This document shows, piece after piece, positions 167 to 22,977 of a stretch of 24,535 nt of DNA (position 1 is its first letter; each line of letters opens with the position of its first letter). Made by a program: the position numbers and the translations under genes. This stretch comes from a virus. The notes beneath the pieces are model-generated. The model did not search any database, was not told where the DNA came from, and was given only the letters and a program-made list of their open reading frames with translations. The stretch lies in IMG/VR virus record IMGVR_UViG_3300007539_000212, positions 1 through 24,535 of that record, one strand, 5' to 3'.

Positions 167-391
167 TCATTTACATACAATAGATTTTAAAAGAATTTTA
201 ATATCATTTAAATCATTTTTTATTTCTTCAACTTGTTTTTTTAAATCTTCAATTTTCTTTTTTTCTTCATATTTTATTTTTGATATTTCCAAAAATTTTT
301 CATATTCATTATTATTGCTATTAATAATAGCATTTGATTTCAGATCCCTAACTAAGGAATGATCTGTTTTTACTCGTAATTTATCATTCAT
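167..391 (-). CDS. Small coiled-coil protein, cyanophage-type (74 aa)
   Basis: This 74-aa protein overlaps the end of the 2495-aa structural gene by 8 nt (ATGAATGA arrangement), which implies translational coupling. The N-terminus (MNDKLRVKTDHSLVRDLKSN) resembles a small conserved protein found beside the same structural gene in T4-like cyanophages. The C-terminal half, from about residue 30, is highly charged. It has a heptad-like pattern of hydrophobic residues (IEDLKKQVEEIKNDLNDIKI), which suggests a parallel coiled coil. It has no signal peptide or membrane segment. It could be a small virion component or a chaperone for the large neighbouring fibre or baseplate protein, in the way small coiled-coil proteins assist T4 fibre assembly. 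That role is inference from position and structure only. Confidence 0.8.
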   Translation of the reverse strand: MNDKLRVKTDHSLVRDLKSNAIINSNNNEYEKFLEISKIKYEEKKKIEDLKKQVEEIKNDLNDIKILLKSIVCK

Positions 392-3300
392 TTATTAAAA
401 ATGATCTTAGTGCTATTGTTCTTAAATTTTTTATTCTTGGTGGTTTTGCTTGATTTGTCGAAGTCATAACCACTTTAATCATAAAACTATTAAATTGTGG
501 AAGATTTTCAGCAGTATATTTATATTCACTAAAATTATTAATTAATGTATTTGGTTGAACTTCTTTATCAGAAGAACCATCACTATTAAACGGTAGATAT
601 ATTTGTTGATATTCTGAACTATCTTCTCTGTATAGTTTATAGAAAACTTTAATATCTGACTCTGCATCTCTATGGCCATCAAATTGCACATAAAGAGAAT
701 TTGATGGAAATTCTAAGTTTATTTTTTTAGTTTCATAAATCGCAGAATTGGGATCAAATCCTGGAATATTGACTCTACTATCTGTCACATAATCACTAAC
801 TTTGTCATCAACTAAGTTACTCATCAGTATTATATTTGTAGTATCCAAATCTACTATAGGAGAAACGTCTTCATTATCTGTATTAAGGGTCAATTCTAAA
901 GCAAATGATTTTTGATTATTTAATAAGTTATACTCATTTACTTTAGATGCGACTATTCTGGGATCATCTAGATAATTTAATTTATTTAAAGTGATATTTT
1001 CATACCCTTTATCAGTAAATGATAATTCAGATCCACTTATACTTGTACCAGAAGTTGTTTTTATCCTTGCAGTAATTGTTGTTCCTGTTGGTGTAATGGC
1101 ACTAACTCTAGGATCAATAATTTCAAATGGTATATTTTGAGAAATTTGCAGATTTTTTCCACCACCAGATTTAGTTGTGGCGAATGTTCTTCCACCATCA
1201 TTTATATTAATATAATAATTATCAAAAGTTTTTTCTCTTGGATCTATATTATGTTCTTTGTTTATTCTTCTAAGAGAAACTGAATTAAATTCATACTTAT
1301 AAACCAAAGAATTTAAGTTGTGATTTGATATAATACTAGAGTCTATGCCTCTTGATGTTATTGTAATTATATCATTTGAAATTGAATTATAAGAAATAAT
1401 TTCATTATCTATTTGTAAATAACCAGTATTAGTAGGGCCTATAGGCACACCTTCAAATGATGTAAAAATACCAGAATTTGATACTTTTAGTGTTGTCGAA
1501 TCTACTGTTAGTTCTTCTGTTAAAAATGTTGGAGAAATATCACTTGCAAAATTTAATATTTCTAACTTATTTGTGCTGGAATGCATACCATGATTTCTAT
1601 GATCAAATAAAATAGTATATCCATCTCTTATTGGATCATCATTGACAGAAGTTGGAGAAGGAATATCATATGAAGTTCCTGTAGAATCATAGTATGTCAA
1701 TCCAGTTCCTGTATTAATATTTGAAATAACATCATCAACAACAATGAAATTAGTTTGTGTTACTACTCCTACTGTTGCTCTTACTCCAGTTCCAGTATTA
1801 CCTATCTGGTTTGAAAGTAAAAGATCGCCAACTGAATACCCAACTCCGCCATCAGTAACATCAAATTCTTGGATTTCTCCACTAGAAACTGTTATATTGG
1901 CAGTGCAGGAATTTCCAAAACCAGTCAATGAAGTAAATCCAATTCCAGAGTAAGATCCATCAGTTAAACCTATTCCAGAGAAAGATAATGTTAGTGAAGT
2001 TGTACCAAGACCAACTGGACCACCAGATGCGAATATATTTGCAGTATTTATCGATTGCGTGATAGTATTTCCTTGCTCAAAAAATCTTGTTGTACTTGCA
2101 ATGGAAATAAATTGACGTTTTGAATAAGAAACAGCAGGATTTTCTTTTAAAATATTTCCAAAAGGCAATTCTTGATTGTAAAAAATAACACTTGATGGAG
2201 TATTAATAACAAATTTTGCTTTATATAATTTGAATTTTAAATCTTCATATTGACTTGCATCCCAAGTTGAAGCATTCTGAGATTTAAATAGAGACCCTAA
2301 AGTTGGTTGTCTGCTATTAATTGATCCACTAATTAAATCTTCTTCACCCAATCTAGATATAAAAGTCAAATATTTATCGGTGTCAGCAAGTAAAACTAAA
2401 GCATATTCATATCCAGATTGAAGATATACTGGTGTAGAGAAATTAAACCTAGTTGCAGAACTTCCATCATCTGAAAGAACTATGTCATTTGGATCTATTA
2501 TAGTTTGTCCAAATGGAACTACCGTATTTGTTGGTGATCCATCTTGCATAGTTCTAATTTGAACTGTTACTGGATAAGTATCATCCTTTGTTTTAAAGTA
2601 TAAGTCTCCTCCAGTGATAAAAATTCCATCTTGTTTTTGTCTTTGTACTAAGAATGATTGAGCTAAAGGATCTACTCTTGCTGGAGGTTGTGGACGTTGC
2701 TGAATTATATTTCGAGTTACATTTGTTATATTTCGATTTACATTTGTTACATTTGTTATATTTTGATTTACATTTGTTATATTTTGATTTACATTTGTTA
2801 TATTTTGATTTACATTTGTTATATTTTGATTTACATTTGTTATGTTTGTTATATTTACAACTGGGGGTGGAGGTGGAAATCTTTCAATTCTACTTGTTGA
2901 TGTAGTTACTGTTCTATCAGAAACCCTCCTATCCTGCTCTTGTACTATTCTAGTTATTGGTTGATCCGAACCAACCTGAATTCTTTCAACTTCCGGAGTT
3001 TTAATTGAAAGAACTTGCTCTTGAGTGCTTTGTGATAAACCAGATGCATTATAAGTAGCTTCTGCTGAACTTTCACCAGGACCTAAAATATTACTATTAG
3101 TTTGGCTTGATGTTATTCTAATAGTGTTTAGGCCAGTAGTAAATTTAGGATTACTATCAATTTTTGGATCTGGTATATGTAATGAGAATAATAAATTGCC
3201 TTTCTCGTCACTTATCAACTCTAAAGAATTTACAGATGCTTCAGCAGTTCCTTGAGAATTTACTAATATCATTCCAGATCTTATCCAACCTATACGATCT

Positions 3301-6300
3301 GGATTTGTAAAACTCGAAAGATCAAAAGTATCTACATTTATGATATTGCTAGAACCAGAATAAGAAGATGTTAAATTAATTAATGTATATGGTTCTGTAC
3401 TATATGTTTCTGTTGGAGAATTATATGGTCCAAATTTATGATTTGCTTGTGCTGCCCTAAATTTTATTTTTGGTGTTCCTATAACAGTTGGAGATATTGA
3501 TGTTTGAATAATATCTGAAGTAGAAAAAGCACCACGCCTCATTGTAACTGGAATAAGTTTTGGAACACAGTATTCAGTAACATCAACATTTTCCATAAAA
3601 ACATAATATTTTGTATTTGGTTTTAATCTTCTTCCAACTACTTCAATATTTCTAGATCTACAATTATATAAAACATCTGTACCAATAATTTTATTTCCTA
3701 AACTTATAGTATCAACTCCTGAAGAAAGTTGAAGTCCAAATTCCCTATCAATACCAGTTTCTTCAAAAACTTCAAGCAAATCTTCAGTTACTCTTTGATC
3801 TCTTGATGTAGTGGTTGTAGTAGTTCTAGCCCAAGCATCAGTTTCTACATTTGTGGAAACTCTTGTTCCCAAAGTACGAACTTCTGTTCCAATTACGGAT
3901 TCTCCTATTTTATCTCTCCCAGTCCAAGTTGTTTCATGGCTATTCCAATAACTTGCAGCCATTCCACCATTTTCACGATTTTCCACTCCAAGAAGACTAG
4001 ACATCGCATTATAAACTGAATCAATTTTTATTGTATCTGGAGTGTTTAATGGAACTTCTTCAATCCAAAAATCAGAAGATGGATTTAGTTCAATGTTTCC
4101 GATATATATTATTACTAAAAATGGATTTAAATTTTCAACCCTTGTCGCTAATGGTTGTGATATAAACTCAACTTCATCATAGTTTAATGTAAGACCAGAA
4201 CCCTTTCTCGTAATATTTGAAGAGCCAAAATCATCAATCCATCTATAATCAGAATTTATTGGATTTAATGAAGAAGAAACTGTCTCAAAAATCAATCCAA
4301 CATTTCTTTCTGTAGTCCTTGGTCTGCATTCTCCAGTTTCTAAATCAATATCAAAATATGATTCTCCAGTAAGATTGTGATAATTGTGACTTCTAAAATT
4401 ATCTACAAAAAATCCAGACTTAAACTTATCCAATCCAGTATTTGGATCTTTAATACTTAAATTTTTAGTATCTGTTTCGAGAAGAGAAAGTGTTGTATAA
4501 TTTTCTAGATTTTTTATTCTATTCTCCAATCTTCCAATATCATTCATTGTATATCTTTTATGTGGAATTGTACTTACGTAGCAATCCACAGAAGCATTTA
4601 GAACATATGGATTCATTTTTATAGAAGCAACCTCAAAAGCTTCTTCATTTGGGGTTGAAGCTTTTGGATTTTCAGAGGGGTCTCCTTCTTTTAATTCAAA
4701 ATTTCCATCTTTAGTTAAATATAATCTATCAATTCTTCCAAGATAATAATCGTAGTCAAGAATGATAGTTTTTTTTGAAACTAAAGTTTCCGAAGAAGAA
4801 TTTAAAAAATTCCTTGAAGAAAATGAAAATGGTGATTGAGTACTTGATGTGGAATAAGTTCCCACTCTTGGTCTAAAATCCAAAAGATCAGAAGATCTAG
4901 TATTAATTGAAAATGGTATCTCTTTGGAGTAATCTAAAGCATTATAGCTATTAACTGTTTCAATTGTCCCAGAACTTTCATTATTTAAATAATAATCAAA
5001 TATTACCTTTAATTTTCTTGTTGGTTCTGCTGTAGATTTTTTTCTAATAATTCTTCCATAATCTACAAATTCTAATCTTTGACCACTGTCTAGTGAATAA
5101 TTATCAATAATATTTCTATCACCAATAACTAATGAGCTAATATTTGCAACAATTCCAGAAGTTTTTAATGTGATAGATTCACCAATTTCAAATGTTTTTT
5201 GATTTTCATATACAAACTCTAGTTGCTGACTTCCTACAACTCGTACTACCCGAGCGAGTGCTCCTGAAGTATTCCCAATAAATTGCTCACCTATTATTAC
5301 ATTATTTACAAATGAATCTGTCTGTGAAGAAACTGTTATTGATGGAACTTCTGGATCTGATAAATCATTTGATTCAAAGATACCTAAAACTCTAAAAACA
5401 TCTGAAACATTTAGTGAGATTTCTTCATCTTGTACTCTTGTACCATAAACTGTATTGTATGATAAACCATCATTAAATGTTGTAGATCCAATACCTGAGC
5501 CTTGGTATTTTGAATTACTTACAATTATAGAACTACATCTAATTAAAGATTTTTCTTTAGATGAAAGACTGCTTCTTTTTACTGTTGCAGTTAAAGTTGC
5601 ATAACCAGTTTTAGATAATCCAGAAATAGTCATTTCATTTAAATCATTATTAAATGTAACTTGAGAATCTCTTATTAATTCTCTTTCTCCAGTCCTCCAA
5701 ATTAAGACATAATTATTTTCAGTAAAAGGTTCAAAGAAAATATTGGTATCTCCTAAATCACTTAAATAAAATGTAAAAGTAGTTCCTGTAATATTTTTTG
5801 TTAATTGTTTTCTTATAATATAGTTAGCATCTAAAAGATTTATTGAAGATACATATTTATCTTGCAGTTTTATTCTGTATCCAAAATTTCCGTTCTTTTC
5901 TAAAGAATTTGTAACAACATCAAAATCTATAACATTTTGATCAGTACTTGGAAGACCACCTTCACAAACTCCTAAAATTGGAGTAACACTTTCTAAGTTT
6001 AATTCATTTGCATTTACTGAAACAACTCTATTATAAGTTGATGTACTAAAACCAGGAATAGAATACCTTACAATATCTCCAATTTTTACTAGTGAATTAA
6101 AATCAGATATACTAGGAGAGGTTACAGTTCCACCAGAAGAAACTGTAAATTGGCTAGAACTTGAAAATAAATTTTTCTTTCTATCTAAAACTAAATCTGA
6201 AGCAAATGTTGTAACTCCGACACTGTTATATACTGCTTTTATATCAGTAATGTCATAATCTCTTATAGATGAAATATTTCTACCAACACTTATTCCATTT

Positions 6301-7871
6301 ATTATTAGTGGCTCATTTATTTGGAATTGTCCCCTAGTATCATAAACAATCAGAGATGTTCCATTAGAAACTGAATCTTTCAAAAACCCAACAGATCCAC
6401 TGTATTGGCCCTTTACGTGAGCATCTGCAGGAGCAGTTAATCCATATCCAATTGTTAAGTTTGTGTATGTTTGAACATCAAAAAGTCTTAACTCATATTG
6501 CGTAGTGGAAACGCCAGATATAACTTTTTGATTAAAATCATATACTCTAGCTAATCCTATAGTTGTTGCAGACCCAATTTGTCTATCAGCAAGTCTTCTA
6601 TCTAAAAGACTTACTGTATATGTTGTAGAAAAACCAATTTTCGGTGATCCAAAAACGTTATCAACTTTAGTAATAGAACCAAGTTCTACGGGCAAACTTA
6701 TATTATTTTTAGATTTTGTAGTTCTTGGTTTAGGAACATCTATTGAAGATGTTGATAATTTATCTATTTCAAAACCTCTTATATATGCCTTTCCTGGAGA
6801 TACCTGCAAAACAAAAATATCGTCAGATGGAGTATTTCCATTTTGGGTCAATTGATTTTCAAAGTATAATCCTCTATTTGAAATTCTATCGTTTAAAGAT
6901 TCCCTTACATCAATTGCAAAAGGCTTTACATAGTAATCTCCAGATTCATCATAAGTTCTTCTTGCTAGTTCATTTTTAAAAATACTATAATCTGTTTTAT
7001 TACCAATAAATTTTTTTAAAGTTCCATTTTCAACTCTTAACAATTCTACAAAGTTTTCATCATTAACATCTGAAATTAATTTTTTATGTAAAGATGTTGA
7101 TATTTTAAATCTATCTGCTCCTGGTGCCGACTCATTTGAAAAACCTAAAGCATTATCATATAAATCTTGATTTTCTTGAGATGCTGATATAATTTCTTCT
7201 GAAATTAATAATCCAATCTTATAACTTGGAGTATTTGAATATTGATCAAGAATTAATACAGAACTATCAACTTTAACGAAATACCCCCTTATAAAGTATA
7301 TACCTTCATTAATTGAAGCAGAAGATCCAACTTCAGTTGAATTTGTATCAATACATTGTGCAAAAGAACTATTTGCTGGAATATTTTCTAATGAATAATT
7401 GATATCTGATAAGGTTATTAGATTTTCACCATCTTGAAATGTTCTTATTGTTCCATTATTACCAGAATTTTTATATTTAATATAAAGAGTGTCGTATCCC
7501 TGCTCAGATTCTGAATCTGTTAATCTATTAACAACTGTTGCAACTACACCAGAAGTTTCTCCTCTGATTTCAATTTTATTATCAGATAAAATTTTTGTAT
7601 ATTCTTTTACTGGTATATTCAAAAAATAAGGATTTATTTTTACTGATGTGTAGTTTTCATCATAAAAAGTTCCTCCAGGTATAACTACAGATCCATCTTT
7701 AAAGAAATGTTGCCCAAATCTTTCTATTTGGTTTTGTAGTATTGATTGTAAAGTTGTAAGCTCTCTTGCCTGAATTGGGAACCCAGGCTTAAAAAGAACT
7801 TTCTTGTAATTATTATTCTCACTAAAATCATCAAAATATGGAGATATGTTTAGATTAGTTTTTTGGGACAT
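384..7871 (-). CDS. Giant tail/baseplate structural protein, DUF4815-type N-terminus (2495 aa)
   Basis: The N-terminus (NLNISPYFDDF, then FKPGFPIQARELTTLQSILQ and FGQHFFKDGSVVIPGG) matches the start of DUF4815 structural proteins of T4-like cyanophages. A second conserved block lies near residue 360 (GKAYIRGFEI). A third lies near 1395-1436 (CRSRNIEVVGRRLKPNTKYY, then DVTEYC), a common tail-protein signature. Residues about 1671-1720 are an Asn-rich heptad stalk after a PPPPP run. A DPLAQSF/FITGGDLYFKTKD segment follows at about 1733-1760, typical of phage tail proteins with a jelly-roll-like fold. Near 2003-2021 there is a GGVGY beta module and near 2150-2165 a LQIDNEIISY module. The ATG lies 4 nt after gp8, with only a weak AAAGA ahead of it. 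By synteny it occupies the gp9/gp10 region of T4 and probably links the baseplate periphery to fibres. The exact structural role is not provable from sequence. Confidence 0.9.
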   Translation of the reverse strand: MSQKTNLNISPYFDDFSENNNYKKVLFKPGFPIQARELTTLQSILQNQIERFGQHFFKDGSVVIPGGTFYDENYTSVKINPYFLNIPVKEYTKILSDNKIEIRGETSGVVATVVNRLTDSESEQGYDTLYIKYKNSGNNGTIRTFQDGENLITLSDINYSLENIPANSSFAQCIDTNSTEVGSSASINEGIYFIRGYFVKVDSSVLILDQYSNTPSYKIGLLISEEIISASQENQDLYDNALGFSNESAPGADRFKISTSLHKKLISDVNDENFVELLRVENGTLKKFIGNKTDYSIFKNELARRTYDESGDYYVKPFAIDVRESLNDRISNRGLYFENQLTQNGNTPSDDIFVLQVSPGKAYIRGFEIDKLSTSSIDVPKPRTTKSKNNISLPVELGSITKVDNVFGSPKIGFSTTYTVSLLDRRLADRQIGSATTIGLARVYDFNQKVISGVSTTQYELRLFDVQTYTNLTIGYGLTAPADAHVKGQYSGSVGFLKDSVSNGTSLIVYDTRGQFQINEPLIINGISVGRNISSIRDYDITDIKAVYNSVGVTTFASDLVLDRKKNLFSSSSQFTVSSGGTVTSPSISDFNSLVKIGDIVRYSIPGFSTSTYNRVVSVNANELNLESVTPILGVCEGGLPSTDQNVIDFDVVTNSLEKNGNFGYRIKLQDKYVSSINLLDANYIIRKQLTKNITGTTFTFYLSDLGDTNIFFEPFTENNYVLIWRTGERELIRDSQVTFNNDLNEMTISGLSKTGYATLTATVKRSSLSSKEKSLIRCSSIIVSNSKYQGSGIGSTTFNDGLSYNTVYGTRVQDEEISLNVSDVFRVLGIFESNDLSDPEVPSITVSSQTDSFVNNVIIGEQFIGNTSGALARVVRVVGSQQLEFVYENQKTFEIGESITLKTSGIVANISSLVIGDRNIIDNYSLDSGQRLEFVDYGRIIRKKSTAEPTRKLKVIFDYYLNNESSGTIETVNSYNALDYSKEIPFSINTRSSDLLDFRPRVGTYSTSSTQSPFSFSSRNFLNSSSETLVSKKTIILDYDYYLGRIDRLYLTKDGNFELKEGDPSENPKASTPNEEAFEVASIKMNPYVLNASVDCYVSTIPHKRYTMNDIGRLENRIKNLENYTTLSLLETDTKNLSIKDPNTGLDKFKSGFFVDNFRSHNYHNLTGESYFDIDLETGECRPRTTERNVGLIFETVSSSLNPINSDYRWIDDFGSSNITRKGSGLTLNYDEVEFISQPLATRVENLNPFLVIIYIGNIELNPSSDFWIEEVPLNTPDTIKIDSVYNAMSSLLGVENRENGGMAASYWNSHETTWTGRDKIGESVIGTEVRTLGTRVSTNVETDAWARTTTTTTSRDQRVTEDLLEVFEETGIDREFGLQLSSGVDTISLGNKIIGTDVLYNCRSRNIEVVGRRLKPNTKYYVFMENVDVTEYCVPKLIPVTMRRGAFSTSDIIQTSISPTVIGTPKIKFRAAQANHKFGPYNSPTETYSTEPYTLINLTSSYSGSSNIINVDTFDLSSFTNPDRIGWIRSGMILVNSQGTAEASVNSLELISDEKGNLLFSLHIPDPKIDSNPKFTTGLNTIRITSSQTNSNILGPGESSAEATYNASGLSQSTQEQVLSIKTPEVERIQVGSDQPITRIVQEQDRRVSDRTVTTSTSRIERFPPPPPVVNITNITNVNQNITNVNQNITNVNQNITNVNQNITNVTNVNRNITNVTRNIIQQRPQPPARVDPLAQSFLVQRQKQDGIFITGGDLYFKTKDDTYPVTVQIRTMQDGSPTNTVVPFGQTIIDPNDIVLSDDGSSATRFNFSTPVYLQSGYEYALVLLADTDKYLTFISRLGEEDLISGSINSRQPTLGSLFKSQNASTWDASQYEDLKFKLYKAKFVINTPSSVIFYNQELPFGNILKENPAVSYSKRQFISIASTTRFFEQGNTITQSINTANIFASGGPVGLGTTSLTLSFSGIGLTDGSYSGIGFTSLTGFGNSCTANITVSSGEIQEFDVTDGGVGYSVGDLLLSNQIGNTGTGVRATVGVVTQTNFIVVDDVISNINTGTGLTYYDSTGTSYDIPSPTSVNDDPIRDGYTILFDHRNHGMHSSTNKLEILNFASDISPTFLTEELTVDSTTLKVSNSGIFTSFEGVPIGPTNTGYLQIDNEIISYNSISNDIITITSRGIDSSIISNHNLNSLVYKYEFNSVSLRRINKEHNIDPREKTFDNYYININDGGRTFATTKSGGGKNLQISQNIPFEIIDPRVSAITPTGTTITARIKTTSGTSISGSELSFTDKGYENITLNKLNYLDDPRIVASKVNEYNLLNNQKSFALELTLNTDNEDVSPIVDLDTTNIILMSNLVDDKVSDYVTDSRVNIPGFDPNSAIYETKKINLEFPSNSLYVQFDGHRDAESDIKVFYKLYREDSSEYQQIYLPFNSDGSSDKEVQPNTLINNFSEYKYTAENLPQFNSFMIKVVMTSTNQAKPPRIKNLRTIALRSFLINE
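517..524 (-). promoter_or_regulatory. Possible internal late promoter octamer TATAAATA
   Basis: This is an exact TATAAATA on the minus strand inside the 3' end of the 2495-aa gene, 126 bp upstream of the 74-aa gene. It could drive that gene separately. However, it lies in coding sequence (encoding a Tyr-Lys-Tyr stretch) in AT-rich DNA, so chance is a real alternative. Confidence 0.28.
2749..2843 (-). repeat. 21-bp tandem repeat encoding a 7-residue heptad (about 4.5 copies)
   Basis: A 21-bp unit (plus strand atttacatttgttatattttg) is repeated exactly three times at 2766-2828. Exact partial copies flank it, giving 95 bp of perfect periodicity, with degenerate copies on both sides. On the coding strand each unit encodes NITNVNQ. 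Ile and Val are spaced 3 and 4 residues apart, the a/d pattern of a coiled coil. Being 21 bp, copy-number changes keep the reading frame. It is part of the 2495-aa gene and not a separate element. Confidence 0.9.
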
Positions 7872-7875
7872 TTCT

Positions 7876-9441
7876 TTAGAATTCTACTACAATTTTTACT
7901 TCTTCTTTTTGTGAGGATGACCTTGTAATTGGTGCCCTATTATCAACGTAAATTATTTCACCAAAATATTTTTGAATTTCAGGATTTGATATACCAGATG
8001 AAAATGTTTGACCTAAATTAATAATTCTTCCACCAATTTGAATAGTATTTCCAGAAAAACTAGTATCAACAATAAGAGATTGTCCTTCAACTGTAGAACA
8101 ATTTATGATAGATGCAGACCCCACAAAATTAAAAAGTCTATTACCATAAGCACTTAATGTTGTAAGTCCAACTGGTTGGTAATATTTTAATATTCCAGTA
8201 TTTTGATCCCATGATGCAACGTATCCAACTGCAGTTGATCCGACACCGACACTTTGAGTTATTAAAGCATTATTTGGATAAAATGTATCAGAGGTATTAC
8301 CAGCACCGACTGGTTTTAATTTTAATGCTCCAAGATTAGTTGCTGTAGAAGTATTTATCGGTTGTTCTTCGCTTCCATATAATGTTGGGTTTTTTATTAT
8401 TCCCACACGAGAAAAATTGTTCCCAATAATATAGTCAGATTCTGATTCATATTTTGAATAAACCATAACTCTATAAGATCCAAGTTCCCTATAGATGTCA
8501 AATCCATGACCACCTTTAGGGGGAATTATGATTTCAAACTGTCCTCCCGATCCAGAAGTTATTGTTGGTGTTTCTTCCAATCCTGGACCAAAATTAATAA
8601 AAGCTCTAGTATATCCAGTTCCTCCATTAGTAATTTGAATTGTGTCAATTTCTCCTCCACTAATTGTAACAGAGGCAAATCCACCAAAACCGTCTCCAAG
8701 TATTGGAATATTTGATACAGTTCCAGTAAATACTCCTCCAGATATTGTATATCCAGAACCCCTATTTTTTACTATTGCAGTTTCAATTTTTCCAGAAACC
8801 GCAGAATTTTTTATATTTTCAGTAATTGGATCTCCCCAGTATCTTGGTACTGGTATATAATTTTCAGTAGAAAACTTAATAATATCTGATGGTGAAATGG
8901 TATAAAGATATTTCCATAAGTAACCATCAGAACCGTCTCCTGCCTGTTGAGGATTTACATCAACAAAATTTGGTTCGCTTATGGATTTTTGACCTTCTGG
9001 GTATTCTGGATTTGCCCCATTATTAATGCAAATATAAACTTTATACTCAGAATTTACAACATAGTATCTAGAATCATACAAAGTTTTTGAATTAGTTTGA
9101 GGTGCAGAATTATTAATATCATAATTATTTCTATACATATCATAAGTTACACCTGACTGCCAGTTATACCTAGGAATAATTTTAGACACGTCATTGAAAT
9201 AAACTCTTTTAAGAAAAAGCATACTATCAAAGTATAAATTTTCTTGTTGAAAAGAGTCTTTTGGTTCTGGTGGATCAGAGCTCCAAGTTGAAGACCCATA
9301 ATTTTCAATATTTGTATTTGATGGGTTTGGGTGAGCTAAAAATGTGTAATAATAATTAGTAGTAGTTCCAATACCAGTGAAACTTTGAACAAAAGTCTCT
9401 GCATTTAATATTCTAAATTGATCAGTAATTATAGCGGGCAT
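7876..9441 (-). CDS. gp8: Baseplate wedge protein gp8 (521 aa)
   Basis: This is gp8, a dimeric structural subunit of the T4-type baseplate wedge. The start MPAIITDQFRILNAETFVQS is characteristic of cyanophage gp8. Further typical blocks are LYFDSMLFLKRVYFNDVS, the WQSGVTYDMYRNN segment and DGYLWKYLYTISPSDIIKF. It is longer than T4 gp8 (334 aa). Extra length includes an insertion with two glycine-tyrosine beta modules near residues 221-236 (NRGSGYTISGG) and 268-284 (NGGTGYTRAFI), also seen in its two giant neighbours. An exact late promoter octamer lies 13 bp before the ATG, and there is no recognisable Shine-Dalgarno sequence. The gene sits between the gp7-position giant gene and the DUF4815 gene, matching T4 order 6-7-8. 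Confidence 0.93.
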   Translation of the reverse strand: MPAIITDQFRILNAETFVQSFTGIGTTTNYYYTFLAHPNPSNTNIENYGSSTWSSDPPEPKDSFQQENLYFDSMLFLKRVYFNDVSKIIPRYNWQSGVTYDMYRNNYDINNSAPQTNSKTLYDSRYYVVNSEYKVYICINNGANPEYPEGQKSISEPNFVDVNPQQAGDGSDGYLWKYLYTISPSDIIKFSTENYIPVPRYWGDPITENIKNSAVSGKIETAIVKNRGSGYTISGGVFTGTVSNIPILGDGFGGFASVTISGGEIDTIQITNGGTGYTRAFINFGPGLEETPTITSGSGGQFEIIIPPKGGHGFDIYRELGSYRVMVYSKYESESDYIIGNNFSRVGIIKNPTLYGSEEQPINTSTATNLGALKLKPVGAGNTSDTFYPNNALITQSVGVGSTAVGYVASWDQNTGILKYYQPVGLTTLSAYGNRLFNFVGSASIINCSTVEGQSLIVDTSFSGNTIQIGGRIINLGQTFSSGISNPEIQKYFGEIIYVDNRAPITRSSSQKEEVKIVVEF

Positions 9442-9454
9442 AATGTTTTTTGAC

Positions 9455-9462
9455 TATTTATA
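9455..9462 (-). promoter_or_regulatory. T4-type late promoter octamer upstream of gp8
   Basis: An exact TATAAATA on the minus strand lies in the 23-bp gap between the 3417-aa gene and gp8. The expected start about 6 nt downstream, near 9449, would give a leader of only about 8 nt before the gp8 ATG. The intergenic position in an otherwise tightly packed operon supports function. The very short leader is unusual and leaves open whether it serves gp8 or only the genes beyond it. Confidence 0.62.
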
Positions 9463-9464
9463 CA

Positions 9465-12400
9465 TTAATAGGATAATCTTAGTGGAAGTAATCTAGAAAT
9501 ATTTGCAGAAGTTTCTATCCCAAGTAATCCATTTTGATTATAAAATTCAAATTCTTTAGCATTTAAACCTCTAGATCCATCAATTGCCCCCCAAGTGTAT
9601 GATCCATAACTTAAAAGATTAGATGGTAAGTTTGATGTAGTTATTCCATCTACTGATGAAACATTTGAATAAATACGAAGAGTTGAAGAACCAACAGAAA
9701 CTATATGATTTGCATAATAAACATTATCAATAAAACTATTTCCAATAGAAACAATTTCACTTAAATTATTCTTAATAGATGTAACCCCACTTCCAATTAT
9801 AGTATTTTCCACTACAAAATAATCTCCTGTAGATAAACCAGAAATAGAAACATCATTGACTATGTTTGGATTTGGTATAATATCAAAAATTAATACTGGA
9901 CTTGTTGTTCCTATTCCTATAGCACTTGTCCCTATTCCAACAATTAATCCATAATCTCCATTATATGATACACTTTCAATAGTCTCAGTTACTGCAGTAG
10001 TTCCTAATCCAACAATTCTTATATCATTTAATGTTTGTCCCAAATCATCAATATTTTTAAAAATTGGATAAACATTTTTTACATATAATCTTGTATCTGT
10101 AGATGCAATTGATGTAATTATATTTGTACTTGGATATATTCCTGGCTCTAGATAATCTCTCTCCTTTGATACAATATTACCATCAATTATTAAATCTGTA
10201 GTTTGCTTAGACCAAACTACTGGACGTAAAAATGTACCGTCAGTAACAATTCCAATACCACCATATGTTTGAGTTTCTAAAGTGTCAGATGCAATTAGTT
10301 CATAAATTGTTCTTTCTTCTTGGCTAGGAACATTATCTTGTTTTTGTAGTCTTAATCTATCTCCTGGTTTGATGGTTTCGGCAACATCAACTTCAATATA
10401 ATCATCAGAAGATCCAACATAGAGATATATTTTCAATTTACTTCCGCTCTTTGGAGCTTCTCTAAATGACAATCTAGTTCCACCATTAAAGATATAATCT
10501 ATATTTGGTTTTTGTAAAACATCATTTAAAAATATTAAAAGATTATTTGCAAGAGCTATACCAGAATCCGCTTGAGCAACAACACTATAATATTCTTTAG
10601 TTACTATAGTTCTTGTTAGTAAGAAAGACTTTCTAAATCCATTAAATAAATTGCTAAAATCATCAAGTTCTAGAAGTTGCCCAAAAGTCCATCCAGAAAA
10701 TTTATTTTGGTATCTATTTTTAACAGTTATATTGAATGCTGAAGTTCCTATTCCTACTTGATACGGAATTCCAGTTAATGATAAATTATCTCCAATAGAA
10801 TAACCATATCCCCTATTTTCAATCTCAAAAGATATTACACTTCCACCTGTTCCAACATTAACATTCATAGATGCATTTTTACCAGATCCACCACTGAGAG
10901 GTAAATTTTTATAAGGAGTAGGTTCATCTATGAAAAGTAAAGGAGGATTTGATGATGTATAACCACTTCCGGGATTTGAAATTGTAAATGATGTTACTAT
11001 TCCGTTATTGACAGAAGATAAAACAGAAGCTCCAAAACCAACTCCTAGAGTATCTGCAATAGAAACTCTAGGATTTATTGTATATCCAGATCCACCAGTT
11101 GAAATGCCAATTGATTGTATAGTTCCTGCTATAGAAACAACTGCATAAGCATATGCTCTTTGCTGTACTTGATACCCACTTCCAATTCCAACTGAAAACT
11201 CATTAATTATTCCACCTTTTGGTAAATCTCTATCTATTTCTGAACCAGTAAATGAGATTGTTTGGCCAGTACCAACAATTTCATAATCGGATTCCAAAAT
11301 TGATCCAACATCCCCATAAAATGGTCTCTGGAATATGTTATTAACTAAAATAAATCCAAAACTTGTTTGAATACCTGATATTGTTTGACCATTATTTTTC
11401 AAATCAAAATCAGATGTGGAGCTATCAAAATTCTCTGATATGTCATCTATTATATAATTTGTATCATAATTTAGTTTATAAAATACTCTTCCGTGAAATG
11501 ATGATTTTGATGTAAGTGACCCAATCCCAGAAGGACCATATGGAGGATCTGAAAAGTATAAAATACCATCTTTAATTCTATAATCTCCAGATAGTACAGT
11601 TACAGATGCTCCCACTGTATGACCAGAAGAAACTGATCCCATACACCCTCTATCAACATTTAAGACATTAGTAGATCCAACACCTACTAAATTTACTTTT
11701 ATTATTTCATTGTTAATTTTTATTAAAGAATTACCTTCTATTTTTGATATATCATTGAGATAAATTGTAGTAGAGGATATTCCAACAGAAGAAGCAAGAG
11801 AAACGATAATATCTTTTCTGGATAATGGACTCTGTAAAATATTATCTATAGATATAACTGCTCTACTAGTTGCTAAATCAGTCTCTACAGATAGTGAATG
11901 AGTAGAACCAATACCAGTTATAGAAGTGAATGATACTGCGCTTCCTGCAATTGCTTCGGATCTTCCTATTGCTAATTTTATTTGATCTTTTGTTACTCTT
12001 ATAGCATATACAGTGTTTGGTAAGATACTAGTTAAACCAATACCAGATACATAAGTACTTGCAATTCCTATTGGATATCCAGTATTTTCAGAATACGTTA
12101 ATATTTCTCCAGTATTAAATTCATGATCATTTATTGATATTATAGAAGTTGATGTGTTTATTCCAGATGGATCAAATTCTTTATAAAAAATTCTATTTGT
12201 AGAAGAATATAGTACAAAAGTACTTAAACCGATTAGTCCTCCACCCAAACTAGTAACTATTCCAGTAAATTGAGAACTAATATCATCCAATAATAAAACT
12301 TTATTAGTTCTTGATTCATTATAATCTGTAATAAGTTTTGAATCAAATTTTATAATTTTAGATAATGAGGAATCTTCAGTATCTTCTGATACTAAATCAT

Positions 12401-15400
12401 AATAAAATCTGTCATAAACAGATGCTTCTCCAAGCAATTCAATAGTTAAATCAATTATAGAATCTTCTTTTTTGATTATTGCTGTATTTCCAATTCCATT
12501 TATAATCTCATAATTTGAAAAATTCTTGAATCCAGAAACATGAGTTAAGCTATTCACTGGTTCTTTCCAAGTTTCATAATCAACTTCACCCCTAACTGAA
12601 TATGAGAATCTTTGATAATAGTCATTATCGTGAATTCTTTGATCGGATAAGTTTAATTTTCCTTTATCCGAAATCCAGTTTTGTGGTTTTAAAAATAAAG
12701 GACTAACTAAGAAGTTTAAATCAAATTCATATTTTTCATCAACCTCTGACTTATAGTTTCCTATGGATCCAATTATTTTTTTATCACTATCAAATTCTCC
12801 ATTTACATTTCTAAGTTTTAAAATTCCAAAATTTGGATCCCATCCATTTTTTGCAACATATCCATAAGCAGAACCATCAATTTGACTTACTAACTCTCCT
12901 TCAACAAATTCAACTTCCTTAAATGTTGGAGTAAATTGTGCCAAGTTGCTTTTTTTAATAACCCTTCCATAAGTATATGCACTATCAAAAGTTCCACCAG
13001 TTAAACCTAAACCAGAAATTGAGTATGAAATACTTTCCGTTCCAGATGTAGTATTAATTTCTGTAACTGTAAAATAATGATATCCATAATCACTGGAGTT
13101 ATACCCATTTGCACTATCAGTAATTTTTACGTTTTCTACATATATTTCATCACCAATAGTAAATGGAAATGGATCAAATCCAAGAAGTGGAGCTCTTAAA
13201 GAAAGAGTATTTACTTCAAATGCGGAAGTTGCACCAATTACATTGACACCATTTGTGTTTATTGTTGGAATAAATCTAACATCTTTTGGTATACCACTAT
13301 CATTTACTAAAATATCAACACTTGAAACCGAACTTCCCTCAATATTAGTTTTTGTAATTATTGAAGAATTTCCTATAGCAATTGTATTTGGAGCAGAAAT
13401 GTAATCTTTTCCTCCACTATCCACACCAATAGAATTTAATGTGTAGTAATTTTTTAATTTTAAAATAGTATAAGCATCAGCTTTGGGTATTAATGTTTTG
13501 TCATTTGGTATTTCTAAACCCTGAGATATAATATCAAAATCAATTATTTTTCCAATTTCATCTGATTCTACAGAAACATCAGCAAAAGAACCAGTTGTAG
13601 AACCAACTGACAATATTGGTGGAAGGTTCTTCAAGGATTTTCCTGGATTTAAAACTTTTATTGAAAATATTCCTCCAGATTCATTAACTGATGCGGTAGA
13701 GTAAAACGCACTACTAAATCCAAGAGCATCATAATATAACCTTTCTGGATTACTTTCCAAATTTAATGTAATAGTGGTACTTCCTATTCCAGATACTTTA
13801 TGAATATTGTTATATTTTGACTCTAATACTTTTATTTTGGAATAATTGGAAACTTCTTCATTTACTGATGATGGATAAGTATTTAAATAATTTAAATCTT
13901 TACCTTCTACTCGGTAATAAAAAGTATTCAGTAAAGAGCTTCCAACAGAAATTAAAATTTTTGTATTTAAATCTTCATCACCATTAACTCCTTGTTTTTT
14001 AATTAAAGAAGTATCATATCTTGCTTTAAACTCTGGATCTCTATAGAAGACAATATCATATCCAGACATGCTAGAATCTGATGTTGCAATAGAAACTGTA
14101 TTTCCAGTATAAAAGTTTAACTTTGGATTAACTTTTGATAATGTGTGATTTCCTGATCCAAAAGAAGTGATACCAATATATTCATTTGGATATTTTGTTG
14201 AATCATATTTATTAGTTGCAAGCCTAATAGTATTGTCTGAAATTTTTATAGCATAGTATATTTGATTGTTAGTTAAAGGAGAAATAGGATCGTTTGCTGA
14301 ATATAAAAGCAAATCTCCAGTCTCATAATCGTGATTACTAATCAATATTGTAGATAGTGTTGAACCAACACCAACTGATGTGGATGCAAATGAGACAGGA
14401 TTAACAACTAATTTCTTAATATTTTCATCAAATAAGAAATTAAAGCTTTGAGTATAACTTGGATTTACATTTAGTCTAATTTTTTCATTTTGTTGTATGT
14501 TGTGCTCTTCATCTAATGTAATAACTGAGTCTATTCTTTTTGCAGTTCCAGTTATTTGATTTTTTATTGTTTCAAACTTGTGAGAATTACCACTAGCACT
14601 TACAAAATATACATAAGAAGTTGTATATCCAACCTTTTCTGTAGATACTCCAATATAATCTCTATTTAATTTTACGCAATATAATTGATCAATATTAGCA
14701 AGTGAAAAAGATGGAGTTAGTGATGAATTTCTAGACGCTAGTATAGTGCCACCAATAGAAACTAAAGATAATTCGTCTCCACTATTAAAACTATGTCCAG
14801 GAAGATATATTGCCCTTGGTGGAATTGATTTTACTATATTTGTACTTCCTGAAGTGCCAACAACGACACTTGTGTAGGTACTTCCAATACCGACAGATGA
14901 AGATGAATCAAAATAATAATACTTATTAACATTTAAATTGAAGTTATTTAACTTTTTATCAATATTAAATGTAAATTCTTTTGATAATTTTTCTACAAAT
15001 TTTCCCTGAGTGTGTGCAGAACCAGTCGAATTGTCATAGGATCTAATAACAATATATCTATTATTATAGTTATCAATATTAGTAATTAACATCTTCTCAT
15101 TACCAACTTTAATTAAATCATCAACATAAAAATTTCCAGTAGATGTTGGTTCTGATAAAGATATAAAAGTACTATATCCAGTTACTGTAGTGCTTGCAAC
15201 TGCTACACTTAATGTAGAAGAAAAAGTATTAACTCCAATAACTCTTTTCCCCTCTATATTTTTGTATGTTGAAGATGTTATTCCGGATATAAAAACAATA
15301 TCATTGTCAGAAAAACCGTGCGGAGAAGTACTGAATGCGGTAACTTTATTATCGGCTAAGGAAAATACTAAATTATTAACTTCAATACTTGTTGTAGCTA

Positions 15401-18400
15401 TTGAAATTATATTTTTTCCAATAATTTCATCAATATAACAATCAATTGTTTCATTAGAATCAAATATAACTTTATCATTAATATTATAGGAATTTCCAGG
15501 AAAATTTACGAAAACTGTTGATATGCCAGATTTTTTAGTATTTTTTACTTTTAATTTTACATTAGAATTTAATGGATCTGATAGAAAATCATAGCTTCTA
15601 TTTTCCTCCCCTAGTCCCAATGGTGTTATATTTCTTACATATTCTCCAGTATTTAAATATACATCCGATTGTGATCTAATTAGGTCATAATTGAATGGAT
15701 CTGTCTCATTATTATGCTCAAATGTAATATAAGGAAACTGTGGGTTTTTAAATGAATCTAAAGTTGAAAAATAAGCATAAGACCCATTAGGAAAATCCTC
15801 ATTAACGACAAATCTACCATTATACTCATCAAGATCGCCATTTCCGGTATATACATAATCTTCAATGAAATATCCAGATGGATAATTTGGTCTTAATGTG
15901 CTATCAGATAAAGGATTTAGTTCATAACTTGATTCAATTCTTTTAAGTCCCCCAGTTCCAGACGTATCTGGGATACTTTTTACATTTCCATATGGTCCAT
16001 ATATTGGATTTCCATCATATGCCCATCCAATAATTGGAGAGTGCGTATCTAATTCTTCAAGCTCTTCAAATGTGTTTGGATCTAAATTATCATTTAATAA
16101 TTTTCTAATTTCTTTTGGTGCATAAAACGAACATATTTTATTTTCTTTTTCCCTAGTTTCTGATTTTATCTGTAGTGTATCTTTATATTCCTCAAGGTTT
16201 AGTGTAGATTTATACCTTTCTACTGTATTAATTTTCCATTCTTGTAAATCTGCTCCAAATTTTGCACCATTTCCACTAGGAATAACACTTATATAAGTTT
16301 CTTTAGTATATCCAGTTCCTCCATTAATTATTTCAACTGAAACAATTTCTCCATCTAAAACACTTGCTCGTAATTTTGCATATTTTCCTGGACCAGAAAC
16401 AATTAACTCAGGGGGAGATGTATAATTTTCCCCAGAATTTACAATATAAACGCTATCAATTACTCCATTTTCATTAATAACTGGTTTTACTGCCCCATTT
16501 CTTCCAGTTTTTAAAGTAATTGTTGGGTTTCTTAAATAATCTATAACATCAGATGATCCATATCCTGCCCCACCATCCTTTAAGAAAATATTTTCAATAT
16601 TTCCTTTAACTTTCACATAAGCACTTGCATCATAATAGTCTGGTTTTTGTGTGCTTCCAATTCCTACAGATCCAACTATATTTACTGTTATTGGTGGATA
16701 TCTAAATTCATGAGTCCCAACTCCTATTGATTCTAAATTTTCATATATTTTATTATTATAATTAGTGCTTGATACACTTGAGGATGTTCCAGCATTACTT
16801 AGTTTAAATCTATTTTCATCAAGAACTGTTACTTTATAATAATTTGATGTAGATAGTCCAGATATTTCTGTTCCTTCACAGAAATATGCTAAAACTTCAC
16901 CATCTTTAAAACTATGATTTTTTGCAAAAATATAATTATCATAAGTATTGATACCAACAAAAGTTTTAAATAAATCTTCTCTATTTTGTGGAGGATAATT
17001 TTTAGAATCTATAATAACTCTTCTGTTTGAATATTTTTCTCCTGAATTTTTTAATACAATTCTATCAATTATTTTTCTTACTTTTTTTGAAGTAATTGTA
17101 TGTGATCTATTACCAAAAGATAAAAAATCAATTAAGTTTGTTTTTTGAAGTGCTCTTTCTTTTGTTGTTGCGAGAGAAAACTTAAAATTATCAATCTTTG
17201 CTATAAAATAAGTTCCACCATTTGATAATCTTGAAGTTGAATATCCAACATTAGTACTTCCAATTCCAATTGATAAACCACTAGTAGTATAGACTACTTC
17301 CTCCCCATCTAAAAATTTATGGTCTGTATTTAGATTTACTACATTTTCTGAAAGGCTTACAAATCTATCAGAAAAAGAAATATTATGTATAAATGCTTTT
17401 GTTTTTGCTTCAGCTTCTGAATTTACGCCATTTCCTCCAATTACATTAATTGAGGGTGTTTCGGTATAATCAAATCCAGGAGAAGATAAAACAATTTCGG
17501 AGATTGCTCCCTCTACACAAGCATATGCTTGTGCAGAAGACCCTATAGTATCTTCAATTAAAACTTCAGGAGGATTTATTACATCATATCCATTGCCTCC
17601 ATCAAGAACATTAATACGGTTTAATTGTCCATAATAGATAGAATTCAAAGATATTGGAGAATATAACTCAACACCATTGAGTGTTACCCCAATTGGACCA
17701 CGTATTTCTAGTTCATTTGATTTATTTTTTGGAACTTTCCTTATTCTTTTAAAGTTATTTTGATTTTTTAAACTTTTTTGTGATAGACTTGCTGGGGTAA
17801 TTCTATATGTTCCTGTACCAATGCCACTAATCGGTATTATTAAATTGCTATGAACATTTTCTCTACTAATACAAAGAGATAAATTATTATTATCAACTTT
17901 TTTCACATAATAAAATCCAGTAGATAAACCAACTATTTCACCACTAGTAGATTCTGGAATATAATATATTTTATCACCATTTATAAAATTGTGATCATTT
18001 AGTGAAATTATACTTGGAGAAATATTATTTTGTGTAAATGTTTTCGATCTATTGGTTGTTTCTAAATCTGAATATGAGGGAAACCCAGAAAATGCAATGT
18101 AAGTGTTCTTATCCTGATCCAAAAATGAATTTTGAATATCCGACATTAAACCTTTTAAATTTAAATCATTAGAAACATATTTTAATCTTTTTTTAACAAT
18201 GTAATTAGCTCCAAGTTCTAATGCCCCAGAGTTTATTTGAAATTGGATTTTACTTACAACTTGAGAAACTGTAGCATTATTAACTGCAACTCCTCCATTA
18301 GATAAATCAATAATATCAACTTTATCACCAACATAAAGAAAATGATAATCTTTTGTTATTATTGTGTTTGTTGCTGGATCTACTGATAAAACAGAATTTT

Positions 18401-19718
18401 TTGATGCATTATTATAAAACCAATTATTATTCTTTTTATCATCTAAACTTGTTTTTTCTCCTAGACTTTTTAAATACAATTCATCATTTGGAGTAAAATA
18501 TTTCGTATTTTCTTTATTAATTACATCTGAAATGGACCCAACAATCCTCATAATACATATTTGGTCTTCTTGATTATTTTCATAACCATAGATAAATTGA
18601 TTACCAATAATTTTGGTATTTTCTTGAAGTGTATTATCTAAACCAGAACAATCAAAAAATTGATTATATGATTTTGATTGATATGTTACTTCATTATATT
18701 CTCCCAAAGAGTCAAGATAATAAAAAGATCCAGAATCAGAAAAACCAATAGTAGAATCTACAGTAACTACTGATGTGGTAGTTCCTGTGCCGATTACTTC
18801 AGTTTTGTTATTAATAATGAAATTACCAACTAATGTATCTCTAGAGATTAAAATCTTATAATATTTTTTATTTCCCAAAAATATTTCTTCTACATTTGAA
18901 ATTGCTCCACTTGCCAAGGGGTTTGATAATGAATCACTTACAATTGTTGATTTTGTCAAATTTAATGGATTTCCTTCAATTGCATCAACAATCATTTCAT
19001 ATGCTACTAACCATTCAGCATCTGAAGGTGTTATTGTATTGTCAAATGGTTTTATTATTTCTACATTTTTTCCAAAAAGAACACTGAATAATATCTTTAA
19101 TGCAGTATCTGTCCCTTTTGATGAATAAAAGTCTCTTGCCCTTGTTAAAATATTTTCTATTGATAAATTTTGTTGAAAGTTTCTATTTTCAAATCCTGGT
19201 ATGAATTGATACTTATACTTTTTATAAAATTCTGCAAGAAATACAAAGCTTAAATTTTCAACAGAGTCCCCTAATAAATGATCTTCAGAATTTGTGGAAA
19301 TAAATGATAAAAATTCTGGATTATACTCGCTTTCTATTTGATCAATACCACTAAATCCTCTAATGCATCCATTAAAAGTATTTGCTGTTTTTTCTGTGTA
19401 TGTAATTATTTCATTGCCAATTTTAATAAGTCCGTACTTATCAGGAAAACCAGCAGTTGTATTTACATTAATTATATCATCAAATATACTAACATTTTCA
19501 GTTAAAAATATTGGAAATAATGAAAGATTAACATTAGAGTAAGTAGAAATATTTTTATATTTTGGTAAATCCTCAGATAAAGAAGTGGATCCAAATTGAT
19601 GTTGTTCGGAAATAAAATACTGACGAAGAAATTCTTTAAACAGAGGATTTTCTTCCTCAATAAAATTTGGTATTTGACTACTTAAAACATCTAAAATTTT
19701 AACCTTTCTTTCAATCAT
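9465..19718 (-). CDS. Giant modular baseplate protein in gp7 position, with YHYH-type module (3417 aa)
   Basis: This uninterrupted gene lies between gp6 and gp8, the place of T4 gene 7 (1032 aa). The N-terminus (MIERKVKILDVLSSQIPNFI) and a block near residues 192-215 (ARDFYSSKGTDTALKILFSV) resemble large T4-like cyanophage baseplate proteins. Near residues 1224-1245 is SPIIGWAYDGNPIYGPYG, the signature of a YHYH-family domain, which continues to about 1335 (LDEYNGRFVVNEDFPNGSYA). The rest is beta-rich and repetitive. It has about ten GGxGY-type modules and seven or eight HxFxxGDxVxY modules. It also has paired IGNEII/INNEII segments and a C-terminal fibre-like segment near 3030-3110 (FLNDVLQKPNIDY, FREAPKSGSKLKIYLY). 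Identity with gp7 rests on position. Recruitment of adhesin-like modules is inference. The start is 2 nt after gp6, with only a weak AAGAT upstream. Confidence 0.9.
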   Translation of the reverse strand: MIERKVKILDVLSSQIPNFIEEENPLFKEFLRQYFISEQHQFGSTSLSEDLPKYKNISTYSNVNLSLFPIFLTENVSIFDDIINVNTTAGFPDKYGLIKIGNEIITYTEKTANTFNGCIRGFSGIDQIESEYNPEFLSFISTNSEDHLLGDSVENLSFVFLAEFYKKYKYQFIPGFENRNFQQNLSIENILTRARDFYSSKGTDTALKILFSVLFGKNVEIIKPFDNTITPSDAEWLVAYEMIVDAIEGNPLNLTKSTIVSDSLSNPLASGAISNVEEIFLGNKKYYKILISRDTLVGNFIINNKTEVIGTGTTTSVVTVDSTIGFSDSGSFYYLDSLGEYNEVTYQSKSYNQFFDCSGLDNTLQENTKIIGNQFIYGYENNQEDQICIMRIVGSISDVINKENTKYFTPNDELYLKSLGEKTSLDDKKNNNWFYNNASKNSVLSVDPATNTIITKDYHFLYVGDKVDIIDLSNGGVAVNNATVSQVVSKIQFQINSGALELGANYIVKKRLKYVSNDLNLKGLMSDIQNSFLDQDKNTYIAFSGFPSYSDLETTNRSKTFTQNNISPSIISLNDHNFINGDKIYYIPESTSGEIVGLSTGFYYVKKVDNNNLSLCISRENVHSNLIIPISGIGTGTYRITPASLSQKSLKNQNNFKRIRKVPKNKSNELEIRGPIGVTLNGVELYSPISLNSIYYGQLNRINVLDGGNGYDVINPPEVLIEDTIGSSAQAYACVEGAISEIVLSSPGFDYTETPSINVIGGNGVNSEAEAKTKAFIHNISFSDRFVSLSENVVNLNTDHKFLDGEEVVYTTSGLSIGIGSTNVGYSTSRLSNGGTYFIAKIDNFKFSLATTKERALQKTNLIDFLSFGNRSHTITSKKVRKIIDRIVLKNSGEKYSNRRVIIDSKNYPPQNREDLFKTFVGINTYDNYIFAKNHSFKDGEVLAYFCEGTEISGLSTSNYYKVTVLDENRFKLSNAGTSSSVSSTNYNNKIYENLESIGVGTHEFRYPPITVNIVGSVGIGSTQKPDYYDASAYVKVKGNIENIFLKDGGAGYGSSDVIDYLRNPTITLKTGRNGAVKPVINENGVIDSVYIVNSGENYTSPPELIVSGPGKYAKLRASVLDGEIVSVEIINGGTGYTKETYISVIPSGNGAKFGADLQEWKINTVERYKSTLNLEEYKDTLQIKSETREKENKICSFYAPKEIRKLLNDNLDPNTFEELEELDTHSPIIGWAYDGNPIYGPYGNVKSIPDTSGTGGLKRIESSYELNPLSDSTLRPNYPSGYFIEDYVYTGNGDLDEYNGRFVVNEDFPNGSYAYFSTLDSFKNPQFPYITFEHNNETDPFNYDLIRSQSDVYLNTGEYVRNITPLGLGEENRSYDFLSDPLNSNVKLKVKNTKKSGISTVFVNFPGNSYNINDKVIFDSNETIDCYIDEIIGKNIISIATTSIEVNNLVFSLADNKVTAFSTSPHGFSDNDIVFISGITSSTYKNIEGKRVIGVNTFSSTLSVAVASTTVTGYSTFISLSEPTSTGNFYVDDLIKVGNEKMLITNIDNYNNRYIVIRSYDNSTGSAHTQGKFVEKLSKEFTFNIDKKLNNFNLNVNKYYYFDSSSSVGIGSTYTSVVVGTSGSTNIVKSIPPRAIYLPGHSFNSGDELSLVSIGGTILASRNSSLTPSFSLANIDQLYCVKLNRDYIGVSTEKVGYTTSYVYFVSASGNSHKFETIKNQITGTAKRIDSVITLDEEHNIQQNEKIRLNVNPSYTQSFNFLFDENIKKLVVNPVSFASTSVGVGSTLSTILISNHDYETGDLLLYSANDPISPLTNNQIYYAIKISDNTIRLATNKYDSTKYPNEYIGITSFGSGNHTLSKVNPKLNFYTGNTVSIATSDSSMSGYDIVFYRDPEFKARYDTSLIKKQGVNGDEDLNTKILISVGSSLLNTFYYRVEGKDLNYLNTYPSSVNEEVSNYSKIKVLESKYNNIHKVSGIGSTTITLNLESNPERLYYDALGFSSAFYSTASVNESGGIFSIKVLNPGKSLKNLPPILSVGSTTGSFADVSVESDEIGKIIDFDIISQGLEIPNDKTLIPKADAYTILKLKNYYTLNSIGVDSGGKDYISAPNTIAIGNSSIITKTNIEGSSVSSVDILVNDSGIPKDVRFIPTINTNGVNVIGATSAFEVNTLSLRAPLLGFDPFPFTIGDEIYVENVKITDSANGYNSSDYGYHYFTVTEINTTSGTESISYSISGLGLTGGTFDSAYTYGRVIKKSNLAQFTPTFKEVEFVEGELVSQIDGSAYGYVAKNGWDPNFGILKLRNVNGEFDSDKKIIGSIGNYKSEVDEKYEFDLNFLVSPLFLKPQNWISDKGKLNLSDQRIHDNDYYQRFSYSVRGEVDYETWKEPVNSLTHVSGFKNFSNYEIINGIGNTAIIKKEDSIIDLTIELLGEASVYDRFYYDLVSEDTEDSSLSKIIKFDSKLITDYNESRTNKVLLLDDISSQFTGIVTSLGGGLIGLSTFVLYSSTNRIFYKEFDPSGINTSTSIISINDHEFNTGEILTYSENTGYPIGIASTYVSGIGLTSILPNTVYAIRVTKDQIKLAIGRSEAIAGSAVSFTSITGIGSTHSLSVETDLATSRAVISIDNILQSPLSRKDIIVSLASSVGISSTTIYLNDISKIEGNSLIKINNEIIKVNLVGVGSTNVLNVDRGCMGSVSSGHTVGASVTVLSGDYRIKDGILYFSDPPYGPSGIGSLTSKSSFHGRVFYKLNYDTNYIIDDISENFDSSTSDFDLKNNGQTISGIQTSFGFILVNNIFQRPFYGDVGSILESDYEIVGTGQTISFTGSEIDRDLPKGGIINEFSVGIGSGYQVQQRAYAYAVVSIAGTIQSIGISTGGSGYTINPRVSIADTLGVGFGASVLSSVNNGIVTSFTISNPGSGYTSSNPPLLFIDEPTPYKNLPLSGGSGKNASMNVNVGTGGSVISFEIENRGYGYSIGDNLSLTGIPYQVGIGTSAFNITVKNRYQNKFSGWTFGQLLELDDFSNLFNGFRKSFLLTRTIVTKEYYSVVAQADSGIALANNLLIFLNDVLQKPNIDYIFNGGTRLSFREAPKSGSKLKIYLYVGSSDDYIEVDVAETIKPGDRLRLQKQDNVPSQEERTIYELIASDTLETQTYGGIGIVTDGTFLRPVVWSKQTTDLIIDGNIVSKERDYLEPGIYPSTNIITSIASTDTRLYVKNVYPIFKNIDDLGQTLNDIRIVGLGTTAVTETIESVSYNGDYGLIVGIGTSAIGIGTTSPVLIFDIIPNPNIVNDVSISGLSTGDYFVVENTIIGSGVTSIKNNLSEIVSIGNSFIDNVYYANHIVSVGSSTLRIYSNVSSVDGITTSNLPSNLLSYGSYTWGAIDGSRGLNAKEFEFYNQNGLLGIETSANISRLLPLRLSY

Positions 19719-22703: not shown

Positions 22704-22723
22704 AAAGATACCTAAGATACAAA

Positions 22724-22746: not shown

Positions 22747-22748
22747 AA

Positions 22749-22970: not shown

Positions 22971-22977
22971 AAAGACC

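Follow-up and report, generated by a model that had tools for sequence, protein, structure and literature searches.

An exact 21-bp repeat and a probable coiled-coil spacer of variable length in the DUF4815 baseplate protein of a marine T4-like phage

The stretch of DNA evaluated here (the window: 24,535 nt, IMG/VR IMGVR_UViG_3300007539_000212) comes from a T4-like marine phage and holds its baseplate genes as a block on the minus strand. Pfam and phrog profiles identify gp25-like (21607..22008) and gp6-like (19721..21607) baseplate wedge proteins, and a gp8-like wedge protein (7876..9441) was matched by Pfam Phage-Gp8 and phrog_438. The ORF list places a 3417-aa protein (9465..19718) between the genes for gp6 and gp8; in isolate S-CAM9, the protein just ahead of gp8 is annotated as the baseplate wedge initiator. 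The gene that contains the repeat (384..7871) lies directly after gp8, and this order of gp8 and then DUF4815 recurs in the annotations of the cultured cyanophages S-CAM9, S-SSM7, P-TIM68, DSL-LC03, and B23. Its 2495-aa product is a DUF4815 (VrlC-type) baseplate protein, which scores 176.6 bits against Pfam PF16075 (cut-off 30) and 1925.9 bits against phrog_358, the latter spanning aa 1-2488; a tblastn search with it matched 1530 phage records. Beside gp25, a 218-aa protein (22047-22703) matches phrog_3704, labeled ferredoxin, and is without a Pfam match; given this and its position within the baseplate cluster, the label looks doubtful.

The initial annotation had described three exact 21-bp copies with partial flanks in a giant tail protein. 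The repeat is real and lies in the 2495-aa baseplate protein, although it is slightly longer than described, with four full copies and one partial. Tandem Repeats Finder reported positions 2747-2847 with a period of 21, 4.8 copies, and 98% matches, while an exact lag-21 match of 76 bases from 2747 delimits a perfect 97-bp run (2747..2843, ~4.6 copies) that encodes (NITNVNQ)n. When the codons of the gene were shuffled 200 times, the longest exact match over all in-frame lags below 120 was 11 on average and 16 at most. The peptide at aa 1666-1740 reads PPPPPVV, NIT, four NITNVNQ units, NITNVTNVNR, NITNVTR, NII, and then QQRPQPPARVDPLAQSF, with the PPPPP run (aa 1666-1670; 2862..2876) standing ahead of the proposed stalk. 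Throughout the whole N[IV]x array (aa 1673-1723; 2703..2855), Ile and Val are 3 or 4 residues apart, in the series 3-3-4-3-4-3-4-3-4-3-3-4-3. The best period is 3.45, and the array amounts to heptads broken by two additional three-residue steps, in agreement with the heptad spacing that had been claimed. A plus-strand ORF across the repeat (2654-2905) is a mechanical antisense frame and was not treated as a gene. N-X-T glycosylation sites were weighed and then set aside, since phage tails are not known to have a pathway of this kind.

The nearest relative found is L006/G001 (one IMG/VR contig), of which 24,371 bases align to the window at 97.8% identity. Within the coding block at 384-22703 (six genes, 22.3 kb), a single gap separates the two: 114 bp (38 codons) in the repeat are missing from the relative, aligned to 2734..2847 with an ambiguous exact placement within the repeat. 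A codon comparison found 1786 identical, 70 synonymous, and 42 nonsynonymous positions, with the 38-residue gap being the sole gap in 1898. The remaining gaps fall at 22926-24425, where the gene at 23183-23938 is free of them, or at the end of the window, below position 160. Copy number is therefore not fixed between close relatives, and the recent in-frame length change that had been proposed is borne out by 114 bp at 97.8% identity in one relative. Across all IMG/VR DNA, the exact heptad pair VNQNITNVNQNIT had 0 matches and the flank pattern of the repeat matched L006/G001 only, so within-species copy number is read from this one comparison. A search of cellular genomes for N[IV]TNVNQN[IV]TNV likewise returned 0 matches. 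The near-identical units lead us to favor an expansion in the window rather than a loss in L006, and recent slippage or unequal recombination may be the reason that the 21-bp units are identical in DNA.

Two other tandem repeats were observed in the window. A perfect non-coding 20-bp repeat, CCCCTTTATACCTTTATAAC x3.85, lies at 24351-24427 upstream of the phrog_1574 gene; three gaps against G001, 33 bases in total, fall in or at it, which makes it seem variable in copy number too. A perfect 12-bp repeat, ATAAGGTCTAGA x2.8, lies at 22938-22971 in the intergenic gap 22703-23183, which is rich in indels relative to G001.

A single-chain AlphaFold2 model of aa 1479-1898 (model mcab84e6a5acd; 37 sequences, mean pLDDT 62, whole-model pTM 0.39) predicts one continuous 49-residue alpha-helix at aa 1676-1724 (model residues 198-246; 2700..2846), the proposed coiled-coil stalk. 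In the middle of this helix, the block pLDDT is 86, 90, and 83, and it falls to 56-60 near the ends. Repeats can lead AlphaFold2 to assign helices too readily, and a helix of 49 residues with so much Asn and Thr would be out of the ordinary. The segment before the stalk (aa 1613-1672, model residues 135-194; 2856..3035) was modeled at low confidence, with pLDDT mostly 32-36. After the helix comes a beta-sandwich starting from DPLAQSF (aa 1733-1888; 2208..2675) with pLDDT near 90, which is lectin/CBM-like and homologous to residues 791-944 of the phi812 DUF4815 chain. The repeat sits between two parts of the giant protein, as the initial annotation had proposed, and stands just ahead of this well-predicted domain. 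The phi812 baseplate chain matched the sandwich with Z 15.8 and 16.8 in the pre- and post-contraction entries, and with a Foldseek E down to 4.7e-10; the match to the lectin-like domain of Cwp84 (4ci7, Z 9.4) was weaker. Matches to CBM6, PHR, and Cry-type domains (Z 5-9) may reflect the common sandwich only, and a phage central fiber match that spans the helix (Douge, Z 9.1, rmsd 13.5) was too loose to use.

A second AlphaFold2 model was made for L153, a relative whose linker has the same residues in mainly three-residue spacing. Its linker was predicted without a helix (pLDDT 35-40), ahead of a sandwich again near 90. Since this linker has no predicted helix despite its like residues, the helix in the window is less likely to be a mere reflex of residue composition. 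Searched on its own against the PDB, the 52-aa repeat had no significant sequence match; the weak matches were mostly coiled coils (M6, E 0.02; coronavirus HR2, E 0.2; a trimeric adhesin fragment, E 0.4). Of two further N[IV]T linkers searched against the PDB, one gave no match and the other only worse matches than the window's.

Based on these models, the array in this phage probably forms a length-variable coiled-coil stalk between a baseplate-docking half and a lectin-like half of the protein. The stalk would link the large N-terminal part, which may dock on the wedge, to the DPLAQSF beta-sandwich and the C-terminal part behind it. Having reached heptad spacing (NIT + NVNQ), the array is predicted to form one 49-residue helix per subunit, in which Ile/Val line one face and Asn/Thr/Gln the remaining ones, and two or, more likely, three such helices may pack as a coiled coil with an Ile/Val core. 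Beta-branched residues at both core positions favor trimers, and an alpha-helix rises 1.5 Å per residue. Each heptad gained would add ~1 nm of rod, and the 38-residue difference from the close relative would come to nearly 6 nm, for a rod of ~7 nm in the window and ~2 nm in L006, if helical at all. A difference of this size between near-identical relatives suggests that the predicted rod behaves like an adjustable spacer. Its length may set the position of the lectin-like half relative to the wedge, and hence adsorption or triggering; trimerization, rigidity, and an effect on reach are what we infer for it.

To place this junction in its family, the segment that precedes DPLAQ[ST]F was extracted from 106 sequences, window included, and the interdomain length was measurable in 102. 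It ranges from 13 to 135 residues with a median of 31, compared to 121 in the window; among those measured, only isolate DSL-LC03 has a longer segment (135 residues). This segment of Synechococcus phage DSL-LC03 (L110) is Lys/Glu/Ala-rich and resembles ordinary charged helices. Spacer content differs by clade and comprises N[IV]T-type repeats, poly-Pro with poly-Gly, Thr-rich, Arg/Gly-rich, or no insert. In 152 related pairs more than 80% identical, which overlap and hence are not independent, a gap was found within the 75 residues before DPLAQ in 100 pairs and elsewhere in the 340-residue segment in 5. Judged from these alignments, length changes come more easily at the junction before DPLAQ than elsewhere in the protein. 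Among 19 annotated phage records (of the 1530 matching), the N[IV]T-array pattern was found in P-TIM68 only. A second variable loop of the DUF4815 protein reads TTTTTTSRDQR in the window (~aa 1350-1360) and holds a ~65-residue Tyr/Trp/Gly-rich stretch in L009 (ORF residues ~55-122).

Pattern searches of all IMG/VR DNA, made without reference to the protein, found N[IV]TNVTRN[IV]T in 9 stretches, 9/9 of them at this DUF4815 junction. The patterns (N[IV]T)3N[IV] and (QN[IV]T)3 gave 71 and 5 stretches, and 53 of these 76 lie at the junction before DPLAQ; that of L149 is additionally cut off there. In L137, L160, and L170, the array is also in the DUF4815 protein but at a second junction, before the domain starting at window aa 274, so the N[IV]T vocabulary fills two interdomain sites. 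In these three proteins, of which that of L170 is encoded at 1694-9478, it is an NVT array at ~aa 311. The other 19 stretches are in frames below 100 aa (12) or of 103-903 aa (7, one MCM-like). Outside DUF4815, L124, L151, and L171 carry an N[IV]T array near the C-terminus of a 478-aa protein of unknown family, for which the L124 copy gave no Pfam match.

Across 48 distinct N[IV]T-type linkers, a set biased because part of it came from scans for units of this type, the step between Ile/Val residues is 3 or 4 in 292/309 cases; Asn precedes 286 of the Ile/Val residues and Thr follows 310. By phase, 4 are heptad, 21 triad (runs of at least 4 three-residue steps, a share inflated by searching for such runs), 3 tetrad, and 20 short or mixed. 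Because most relatives' arrays are not heptads, a coiled coil as a family trait is unsupported. The coiled-coil reading of the initial annotation therefore largely stands for this phage, where the structure prediction gave a helix, and does not extend to the family, in which 4/48 linkers are heptad and L153 has no predicted helix. Pairs of like units are identical in DNA at a median of 0.20 over 41 linkers, with 0/10 in L155 and 25/32 in the window, whose array ranks near the uniform end of the set; only four linkers score higher, on 3-6 pairs each. The window's copies are thus young, whereas units of older arrays share amino acids yet differ in DNA, so that selection on the protein keeps the N[IV]T pattern. 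At the level of sequence, then, one N[IV]T vocabulary serves in three-, four-, and seven-residue phases, and mostly at a single junction of a single protein.

The unlike spacers at the same spot in relatives raise the question of whether any spacer may do. The segment would then be a flexible, unstructured interdomain tether tolerating any low-complexity sequence, with N, I, T, and V supplied by AT-rich repeats grown by slippage. The poly-Pro/poly-Gly, Thr-rich, and Arg/Gly-rich spacers fit such a tether, as does the three-residue-phase linker of L153, predicted without structure at pLDDT 35-40. However, the window array is the confident part of its model where the preceding segment is not, several phages keep N[IV]T units as amino acids although the DNA of the units differs, and spacing and residues are strict (292/309 steps of 3 or 4 in the 48 linkers, although the scan was biased towards such arrays). 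We consider a tether possible but unlikely.

A wider scheme can also be drawn, in which N[IV]T, with an optional fourth residue, builds baseplate spacers in dozens of distinct marine phages and the unit spacing sets their architecture. The three-residue phase would give something other than a normal helix, with a hexad alpha/beta coiled coil as the candidate, and an extra residue in every second unit would give a heptad coiled coil. Slippage would tune the stalk in ~1-nm steps, and the window would have been caught just after a phase change and expansion. In their work on alpha/beta coiled coils, Hartmann et al. (PMC4786415) had not found a hexad one, and the three-residue arrays in particular invite a structure. 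We regard the scheme as a whole as doubtful.

Very unlikely, in our assessment, is an ordered non-heptad fiber across the family, for example an alpha/beta coiled coil on three- or six-residue periods (Hartmann et al. 2016, PMC4786415), of which the window heptad would be a recent offshoot. Residue choice in the N[IV]T linkers is strict, and three-residue spacing dominates many relatives, with at least 4 such steps running in 21/48 distinct linkers, a count inflated by the search. Against such a fiber, AlphaFold2 gives L153 a coil, which lends it no structural support, and the beta-layer consensus [aliphatic]-A-T-K-[polar]-[DE] (one family, PMC4786415) is absent here. A wrong number of 21-bp units in the contig is highly improbable: copy number could be mis-assembled because the window and L006/G001 are both metagenome assemblies and short repeats are error-prone, but the frame is intact, the edge units differ, the perfect run is below 100 bp, and many independent contigs, as well as isolate P-TIM68, have N[IV]T arrays of their own.

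Baseplate spacers would set the distance of a putative glycan-binding domain from the tail. With the natural spacer series of 13-135 residues, it could be tested whether ocean phages tune their adsorption through the length of the stalk. The strict N[IV]T units, spaced by three, four, or seven residues, may further serve as a natural experiment on how the repeat phase decides between helix and no helix. The part most worth following is the re-use of this vocabulary in several phases mainly at one junction of the DUF4815 protein.

Literature titles and abstracts returned no earlier description of the repeat in DUF4815/VrlC proteins, which does not prove its absence. Among known systems, the trimeric autotransporter stalks (2wpr, 2wpq) are coiled coils that match the window repeat weakly (E 0.44 and 4.9); YadA-type anchor and head domains were not found, and Pfam finds only DUF4815 in the window protein. 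Alpha/beta coiled coils (PMC4786415) share periods of three and six with the relatives' arrays, whereas the window array is mainly heptad and the beta-layer motif of that work is absent from it. The VrlC or tail-fiber label is shared with Deep-Blue Gp176 and Vp4 Gp120 of Bacillus phages, for which the available part of Nuytten et al. (PMC11406892) matches domain 811-959 to the lectin-like domain of Cwp84 (4CI7). The window domain has this 4ci7 match in common (Z 9.4), a likeness drawn by description, and that part of the article mentions no repeat stalk in the Deep-Blue/Vp4 protein. In pelagi- and cyanomyophages, the available part of PMC7029224 presents VrlC as a conserved baseplate component at the edge of a variable host recognition cluster and describes neither a repeat nor length variation in it; in P-TIM68, from this group, an N[IV]T array occupies the site that it has in the window. 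The DUF4815 baseplate protein of phi812/Kayvirus (PDB 9euf, 9eui, 9euj) is homologous by sequence (E 1.5e-36), and its post-linker domain shares the fold of the window's (Z 15.8-16.8). It is 1152 aa long compared to 2495 aa in the window, and in the Kayvirus relative phiIPLA-RODI (L112) the interdomain segment measures just 18 residues and lacks a repeat. Set beside these systems, the window is best read as carrying an expanding coiled-coil spacer inside an already known baseplate family.
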